64,000 nucleotides of DNA, taken from assembly GCF_025362475.1 (NCBI RefSeq), contig NZ_JANYGH010000014.1, positions 40,955-104,954 on the forward strand, read 5' to 3'. The stretch is from Mucilaginibacter sp. GTDB taxonomy: Bacteria; Bacteroidota; Bacteroidia; Sphingobacteriales; Sphingobacteriaceae. Every line of letters starts with the position of its first letter. Within the stretch, counting starts at the first letter, position 1. Position numbers and translations under genes: made by a program. Of this stretch, positions 54,857 to 57,295 are shown one piece after another. The notes beneath the pieces were generated by a model that was not told the origin of the DNA, made no database searches, and saw nothing but the letters and a program-made list of their open reading frames with translations.

Positions 54857-55018
54857 CCCCCCAACCCCTGAAGGGGGAGCTTTTGATTTGCAGCTTTGAT
54901 AAGCAGTCAAAATCGTTGGGCTTAAATGAAATAATCCTTCCCTAAAGGATAATACAAAATAGGCTTCCTCTTAGGGAAGGAAGCAAATCAAAAATTCCCC
55001 CTTTAGGGGGTTAGGGGG
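54857..55018. repeat. 162-bp palindromic element filling the proS-metB gap
   Basis: The left arm 54857-54891 starts CCCCCCAACCCCTGAAGGGG, and the right arm 54983-55018 is close to its reverse complement (TCCCCCTTTAGGGGGTTAGG). A nested inner pair, CCTTCCCTAAAGG and TTAGGGAAGG, adds a second hairpin. It starts on the base after the proS stop and ends 4 bp before the next ATG. A shorter copy lies inside the gene at 56240-57076. Confidence 0.9.
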
Positions 55019-56162: not shown

Positions 56163-56233
56163 AATCAAGAGACAAGAGTCAAGAATCAAGAAGGGAAAAA
56201 TCTTACCTCTTGATTCTTGACTCCTGATTCTTT
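56163..56233. repeat. Palindromic repeat, (AGTCAAGAATCAAG) family
   Basis: AGTCAAGAATCAAG (56177-56190) is an exact reverse complement of CTTGATTCTTGACT (56209-56222), with further partial matches in the flanks. It fills almost the whole gap between the PLP enzyme stop and the next ATG at 56240. Confidence 0.85.
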
Positions 56234-56239
56234 GTAACT

Positions 56240-57076
56240 ATGATAGAAAACATTAAGTCCTTTCTCGACGCCAAAGTTGCCCAATATAATCGCCCGGAGT
56301 TTATTGAGAACGACCCTATCGTGATCCCTCACCTGTTCAGCAAAAAGCAGGATATCGAGATCATGGGTTTTTGGGCGGCTACCCTGGCCTGGGGGCAACG
56401 GGTTACTATCATTAAAAAATGTAAGGAATTGATTACATTGATGGATGGTGCACCGCATGATTTCATCATCAACCACGAAGAAACTGACCTTAAAAAGCTG
56501 CTGCACTTTAAGCACCGCACGTTTAATGATATCGATACGCTGTATTTTATAGCGTTTTTCAGGTACCATTATGAAAAGTTTGAATCTTTGGAGGATGCTT
56601 TTTTACCGCAGCCCCCCAGCCCCCTGAAGGGGGAGCAAGCGAAACTCCTCGTAAATCAAGAAACTCCCCCTTCGGGAGGCTTGGGGGTCGAAGATTATCT
56701 CAACCATTTCAGGAAGTATTTCTTCTCCTTGCCAGACTTTCCTCATCGTACCCAAAAACATGTATCATCGCCCTCGCAAAAATCTACTTGTAAAAGACTG
56801 AATATGTTTTTACGATGGATGGTACGCAAGGATGATAACGGTGTAGACTTCGGTATCTGGAATCACATTAATCCCGCCGATCTCATCTGCCCGCTTGATT
56901 TGCACGTCGACCGTGTATCCCGCAAACTCCTCCTTATTACCCGCAAACAAACCGACTGGCAAACTGCCATTGAACTAACCCAAAGGCTAAAACAATTTGA
57001 TCCCCTCGACCCGGTGAAATATGATTTCGCTTTATTTGGATTAGGGATTGAAGAGCGCTGGGGAGTGCAGTTTTAG
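56240..57076 (+). CDS. TIGR02757/DUF2400 family protein with an in-frame palindromic insert
   Basis: 278 residues. The start MIENIKSFLDAKVAQYNRPEFIENDPI and the block CKRLNMFLRWMVRKDDNGVDFGIW are highly typical of the TIGR02757 family. The family looks like a helix-hairpin-helix DNA glycosylase relative but has no proven function. Between LEDAFLP and EDYLNHFRKYFFSLP there are about 26 extra residues, QPPSPLKGEQ...PPSGGLGV, encoded exactly by an inverted repeat at 56612-56687 related to the element at 54857-55018. The frame stays open through it, so the protein is probably made with a surface loop. The upstream gap is itself a palindromic repeat. Confidence 0.85.
   Translation: MIENIKSFLDAKVAQYNRPEFIENDPIVIPHLFSKKQDIEIMGFWAATLAWGQRVTIIKKCKELITLMDGAPHDFIINHEETDLKKLLHFKHRTFNDIDTLYFIAFFRYHYEKFESLEDAFLPQPPSPLKGEQAKLLVNQETPPSGGLGVEDYLNHFRKYFFSLPDFPHRTQKHVSSPSQKSTCKRLNMFLRWMVRKDDNGVDFGIWNHINPADLICPLDLHVDRVSRKLLLITRKQTDWQTAIELTQRLKQFDPLDPVKYDFALFGLGIEERWGVQF
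56612..56687. repeat. Palindromic repeat inserted in a coding sequence
   Basis: CCCCCCAGCCCCCTGAAGGG at 56612 onwards pairs with CTCCCCCTTCGGGAGGCTTG (56664-56683) around a 28-bp centre. The arms match the intergenic element at 54857-55018. In this orientation both arms are read without a stop codon. Confidence 0.85.
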
Positions 57077-57256: not shown

Positions 57257-57295
57257 AAATGATAAAACCTATCATTTTGATAGGTTTTATCATTT
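57257..57295. repeat. Perfect 18-bp inverted repeat with a 3-nt loop
   Basis: AAATGATAAAACCTATCA (57257-57274) and TGATAGGTTTTATCATTT (57278-57295) are exact reverse complements. There is no flanking T run of the usual terminator kind. It is 223 bp upstream of kup. Confidence 0.9.

Follow-up and report, generated by a model that had tools for sequence, protein, structure and literature searches.

The TIGR02757/DUF2400 gene of this Mucilaginibacter sp. carries an in-frame insert that is one of many copies of a palindromic repeat dispersed across that genome. The repeat was probably inserted into the gene, and in related species the corresponding loop has probably been replaced repeatedly by short mobile repeats, which persist only when they keep the reading frame. 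Many times over, a single protein loop has likely gained and lost selfish-looking DNA. These sequences would stem from repeats of the host genome itself, and we infer both their mobility and the order of events. The window, to which coordinates given without a contig name refer, is the whole 64-kb stretch of DNA that was analysed.

The host gene occupies positions 56240..57076 on the + strand as an open frame encoding 278 aa, and profile searches with this product return DUF2400 (E 2.8e-84) and TIGR02757 (E 5.3e-61). The insert, a palindromic element of the repeat type designated family A, comprises 27 residues (Q124-V150; 56609..56689, + strand) located after LEDAFLP and before EDYLNHFRKYFF. 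Arm comparison places its left arm, which encodes PPSPLKGE, at 56611..56635 (+ strand) and its inverted right arm at 56664..56687 (- strand), where the + strand reads TPPSGGLG. The arms are separated by a 28-nt spacer (56636..56663, + strand) that encodes a different peptide in the related protein P0002. Over 24 nt, 56612-56635 and 56664-56687 are 88% complementary, and each family-A arm by itself makes up a small hairpin with the pattern GCCCCC(C)NNCCCCCTRAAGGGGGAR. The first-pass annotation put the extra residues at about 26. The stretch from LEDAF to FRKYFF spans 35 residues here, compared with 14-16 where the genus has it shortest, so that about 20 residues are extra.

A second family-A element lies at 54857..55017, in the gap between a ProRS-like gene and a Cys/Met-metabolism gene (neighbours named by family, strand unassigned). 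Complementarity between its arms, 54857-54891 and 54983-55017, is 83% over 35 nt, and the left arms of the intergenic and coding elements match at 88% over 24 nt. The proposed relationship between the two inverted repeats is thereby confirmed, as is the absence of a stop codon from the insert, since the frame is open throughout 56240-57076. At up to 3 mismatches, the 16-nt family-A core occurs four times in the window, a number reached by none of 100 dinucleotide shuffles (mean 0.12), and Rfam contains no family matching the 64-kb window at gathering thresholds. Other inverted repeats flank the DUF2400 gene, namely a 25-nt pair of the GAATCAAGA type upstream (56167-56232) and a perfect 18-nt repeat downstream (57257-57295).

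Copies of the unit elsewhere in the genome, named by the first-pass annotation as support for its reading, are abundant and mostly intergenic. A relaxed arm pattern yields 47 + 51 matches genome-wide, with overlapping registers counted twice, against 0 + 1 for the reversed pattern. The regions around these matches, 34 in number, contain 64 family-A cores, a few of which may be due to chance; 17 outward-facing pairs are spaced 45-133 bp apart, and the remaining 30 cores are single or otherwise paired. Three 20-kb control regions contain no family-A core. Family A thus amounts to about 60 copies, mainly intergenic, most of which fall in no ORF of at least 133 residues. Within conserved genes of this genome, with homology on both sides, it is found in DUF2400, in RadA (TIGR00416, E 2e-174), which has a full family-A pair in frame, and in RecN (TIGR00634, E 8.4e-137), which has one arm in frame. 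Further copies lie at the putative starts of homoserine kinase, 2-phosphosulfolactate phosphatase and GNAT-type ORFs, and another near the end of an ORF without a Pfam family. One locus (G000:C42:68562-69701, in L048) reads as a single open frame from DUF559 through a family-A arm into HisF, as if the repeat had fused two genes.

Structurally, the insert falls in a predicted disordered loop between two helices. The AlphaFold model of the protein has a mean pLDDT of 86.5, and residues 125-147 form the sole stretch with a pLDDT <50; stop-free inserts would be tolerated at this position because the loop is predicted to be disordered and connects two helices. The protein as a whole is predicted to adopt a DNA-glycosylase-like fold, the model conforming to the overall HhH-GPD fold, an assignment based on structural re-alignment and not on the direct Foldseek search. 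The latter gave no match at E <=0.001, its top rows nevertheless being DNA glycosylases. A sequence search of solved structures produced three matches up to E 1 and nothing useful; one solved-structure match, to a designed repeat protein (E 2.1e-05), contains no stretch that passes by itself.

In relatives, the same loop is filled by several unrelated repeat families, a genus-wide pattern that the first-pass annotation missed. Loop length and content vary strongly among the 110 loci examined first, 93 of which are distinct. To classify loop DNA, we used local alignment to five repeat consensus sets (A-E) with shuffled loops as control; loops given a class score above 60 shuffles each, the shuffles keeping base composition only. 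The least biased count comes from an evenly drawn set of 61 genomes of the genus, of which 59 have a DUF2400 match and 2 have none. A recognised genomic repeat occupies the loop in 47 of these 59 genomes (A 34, B 9, C 2, D 1, E 1). The larger set of 104 distinct sequences from the genus divides into A 59, B 20, E 3, C 2, D 1 and none 19, with one locus (L126) moved by hand from E to B because both families are present in its loop, another (L147) scored as none although its peptide resembles those of its E neighbours, and palindromes outside families A-E (e.g. L100) also scored as none. Both arms are present in 24 of the 59 family-A loops, the left arm alone in 21 and the right arm alone in 14. 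By eye, B-like or other repeat-like peptides can be recognised within the family-A loops of P0056, P0098 and P0103. Homologues without the segment, the other support that the first-pass annotation asked for, exist both within the genus, where 12 of the 59 genomes have no recognised repeat in the loop, and in other genera with short loops. Both checks thus favour its interpretation.

Outside the genus, one of 68 loci (40 from the same family, 28 from the wider phylum) received a call, a weak family-C match in L208 (score 13) that we take as the false-positive level. Loops have 17-20 residues in one group (g2, probably Sphingobacterium), 13-17 in the wider phylum, and about 40 to 50 in several other groups and in most loci of g3 (Pedobacter). 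The g3 loop has a conserved sequence, ..SS.CY..L...IEQALNH (L205-L244), with no recognised repeat, and could be an old insert that has since settled. The first-pass annotation had counted a similar loop with unrelated DNA throughout the phylum as evidence against its reading, and this situation exists in part: most Pedobacter-group homologues have such a loop of about 40 residues, but its sequence is conserved and non-repetitive. The loop is therefore tolerant of length across the family and repeat-filled in the genus of the window. Variation in loop length across the family without recognised repeats is what would be expected of an ordinary variable loop. Nevertheless, such a loop, or an assembly or annotation artefact, is hardly credible as an explanation: every called loop outscores its 60 shuffles, repeats are present in the loop in many separate assemblies, including the single-contig genomes G034, G042 and G048, and the DUF2400 ORF is single and unbroken in 59 of 59 genomes.

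All five families are genomic repeats in their own right. Across the 61 genomes, family A is found as exact cores in 54, B in 43, C in 31, D in 59 and E in 38, and the reversed control patterns for families A-E match in none of the 61. Genomes whose loop contains A (34), B (9) or C (2) are richer in that same family (one-sided p 0.006, 0.013 and 0.023), in a test that ignores kinship, includes the loop's own copy and relies for C on two genomes only. Loop content does not simply track copy number, because family D (GTCATTGCGAGGNACGAAGCAATC), the commonest with 3398 copies in 59 genomes, fills one DUF2400 loop. This family reaches 365 copies in G013, and by our own reading its unit is open in most frames. 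A variant of family B links one loop to its host more specifically: among the copies listed, 36 of 41 in G016 have CAGA instead of the consensus CTGA, against 0 of 109 in ten other genomes, and the copy in the DUF2400 loop of G016 is one of the 36. This variant is not unique to G016, because the loops of other species (L135, L145, L191) share it (VIQS).

The DUF2400 loop is also a hot spot for family A. Named loci comprised the best 80 of 349, 74 of them titled Mucilaginibacter and 6 Bacteroidetes or Sphingobacteriaceae bacterium. In these best 80 of 349, the loops total 6.5 kb and contain 49 family-A cores, spread over 38 of the 80 loci, against 53 cores in 459 kb of sequence beyond the DUF2400 ORF; shuffling the letters of all 527 kb leaves 9. 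A further 15 cores, from 12 of the 80 loci, all fall within the first 30 residues of the stop-to-stop DUF2400 ORF and may represent a second in-frame site, or some of these arms may precede the true start. At this N-terminal site (e.g. L077, L083, L090, L106 and L131, in the range L075-L154), the right arm occurs in more than one reading frame. Other ORFs of at least 150 residues have internal A or B matches in 3 of 80 loci, in each case in a spurious-looking ORF on the minus strand (153-240 residues). In RadA and RecN, family A occurs at the same place in 14 of 30 and 16 of 30 loops, respectively, among the best 30 of 58 matched genomes for each protein (one of the 58 RecN genomes being marginal), and these proportions are biased upwards because loci were ranked by likeness to an insert-bearing query. 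Several RadA and RecN loops without family A contain, by eye, other repetitive-looking DNA of the GTTGGCAGT, AAATCCGAAATC and GTCGGAAAGTC types (L289-L293, L299, L302, L304, L306, L307, L323, L324), possibly belonging to further repeat families.

Closely related proteins can differ in the loop while being nearly identical elsewhere. The window protein differs from P0002 at 1 of 233 core residues, and peptide comparison indicates different family-A elements in the two loops; it differs from P0007 at 5 of 233, the loop of P0007 being B-like by peptide and that of the window protein family A. Similarly, the cores of L086 (A) and L142 (B) are identical at 225 of 229 residues, with 90.6% identity in the flanking DNA. 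Core identity reaches 97.5% or more in 56 pairs; loop identity is at least 80% in 20 of these and below 50% in 14, in a sample that leans towards differing pairs because the proteins represent 90% clusters. On a gene tree made without the loop, a quick tree of weak resolution that leaves 59 of 108 inner branches open, the repeat class changes at least 23 times when repeat classes only are considered, at least 20 times at SH-aLRT >=80 and at least 14 times at >=90. Shuffled labels give averages of 24.0, 21.3 and 16.5 changes, respectively, and because the observed counts lie near these values, the agreement of repeat class with the tree barely exceeds chance.

Exchange of short gene pieces between strains or species by homologous recombination could also place different loops on nearly identical cores, so that the pairs differing at 1 to 5 of 233 core residues would also fit imported alleles in place of repeats drawn from the host. 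We consider such allele exchange unlikely, as loops tend to hold a family that is more numerous in their own host, the G016 loop contains the variant dominant in that very genome, and the first entry of repeats into the gene would be left unexplained.

The state of the repeat DNA within the loop would also fit replacement by the host's own repeats. Across 35 loops (595 pairs), third codon positions are 78% identical in left-arm codons versus 56% in flanking codons, and thus the repeat DNA itself is kept, beyond the peptide that it encodes. In pairing between the arms, the centre base is concordant in 14 of 17 cases (Fisher p 0.009), a value that comes from related, non-independent loci and from which we do not argue. 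Two of the three frames through the left arm of family A are open, and the phase of this arm in DUF2400 is the same in 40 of 40 loops scoring >=16, though a second phase is open; this other open phase is the usual one in RadA (12/13) and RecN (8/8). These phases were counted on left arms; right-arm counts are set aside as unreliable, since the right-arm pattern can also match a left arm. One phase per gene suggests one founding insertion per gene, or a fixed or preferred insertion point, followed by renewal in place, and it therefore implies fewer truly independent family-A insertions.

The single phase is also what would be expected if family A had entered once in the ancestor of the genus and descended vertically, later loops being decayed forms with only a small number of other repeats added. 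This scenario agrees with the predominance of family A, present in 59 of 104 loops, and with the 20 of 56 close pairs that keep their loop. We nonetheless regard a single ancestral entry as quite unlikely: arm third positions have stayed nearly identical despite drift in the flanking codons, families B to E differ in sequence, some near-identical cores carry different loops, and the loop class goes with the host copy number.

A further explanation is that the loop is selected for a function, residing in its peptide, its length or an RNA or DNA hairpin, with repeats serving as handy raw material. The long, conserved, non-repeat loop of most Pedobacter-group homologues is in keeping with a selected function, as is the presence of family A in both RadA and RecN, two DNA repair proteins. 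Several properties of the genus loops fit such selection poorly, which makes it improbable: unpartnered single arms are common (35 of 59 family-A loops), the peptides show the right arm of family A read in several frames across DUF2400 loops, and loops of 14-16 residues exist within the genus.

Repeated in-frame replacement from the host's own repeats, the reading that we favour, would proceed as follows. Short palindromic repeats of the host would spread through the genome by virtue of a putative mobility, and most insertions into genes would be lost, the survivors being those that fall in a disordered loop, contain no stop and keep the frame. A loop already holding a repeat could then be refilled, either through a new insertion beside or inside the earlier repeat or through a swap with a copy from elsewhere in the genome, and partial deletion would subsequently trim the refilled loop. 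More tentatively, the flexible loops of the DNA-repair proteins DUF2400, RadA and RecN in this one genus could serve as docking sites for its own repeats, with selfish DNA acting as an engine of loop diversity, a possibility that we consider rather doubtful.

Cases of repeat DNA becoming protein sequence have been described in Rickettsia and a small number of other bacteria, mostly as single inserts. One loop refilled many times within a genus constitutes a natural experiment with dozens of parallel cases, through which the turnover rate of repeats inside genes, the tolerance of proteins to such inserts and the question whether new peptide ever comes into use can be addressed. In this genome, RadA, RecN and a protein predicted to fold like a repair enzyme are the clear internal hosts, three in all, which echoes a remark in the REP literature (PMC3733652) and makes that remark testable.

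Rickettsia palindromic elements (RPEs) are a close parallel by description, being in-frame repeats found in many genes according to PMC10969869. As described in PMC10969869 and PMC3733652, palindromic repeats here lie in frame in conserved genes, with several families per genome. The window insert resembles an RPE in being a palindromic repeat with other genomic copies, in frame in a conserved gene, at a position where the predicted fold can bear it (pLDDT <50). The likeness to RPEs drawn by the first-pass annotation was apt, and the occupation of one loop by five families goes beyond what it described. Unlike RPEs, these repeats belong to another phylum, and several unrelated families occupy the same loop of orthologues across the genus.

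Family A also resembles REPINs and their associated RAYTs, as its REP-like arms form inverted pairs 45-133 bp apart and the genome contains four Y1_Tnp genes. The difference is that no Y1_Tnp gene is flanked by family A: in the 7-9 kb stretches analysed around these genes (genome 95% complete), no family-A arm is closer than 3,985 bp. Membership in the REPIN/RAYT system was considered and is not claimed, because other palindromes flank the four Y1_Tnp genes. The surroundings of these genes (L070, L071) have palindromes of their own, e.g. CAACGGGTTAAAACCCGTTG and AACTTACGAAGTTTT/AAAACTTCGTAAGTT, which are candidate REP partners. MITEs are defined by terminal inverted repeats with a target-site duplication and a related transposase, and of these traits inverted arms are present in family A.

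A precedent outside Rickettsia is provided by the intragenic GTAG and CGTC REPs (PMC3733652). These repeats are described in ORFs of several bacteria, many of the hosts being genes for DNA synthesis or repair; dimers or groups encoding 20 to 30 residues make up over half of the ORF inserts; CGTC repeats are reported from Bacteroidetes; and recB of two Xanthomonas species has different REPs at about the same site. The first-pass annotation, which knew of no counterpart in the phylum, overlooked this precedent (PMC3733652) for in-frame REPs beyond Rickettsia. In the open literature, with subscription papers largely outside the search and most sources covered through abstracts and passages, we found no report of such in-frame inserts in Bacteroidota proteins, nor of several repeat families sharing one protein loop across a genus. 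Family A differs from the intragenic REPs in having no constant GTAG or CGTC tag, the bases before GCCCCC being GTA, TTA, CAG, TAG, ATA or AAA, and the same-site pattern here involves five families across a whole genus. Proteins with in-frame REPs are therefore already known, and what looks new is the occupation of one loop by several repeat families across a genus.
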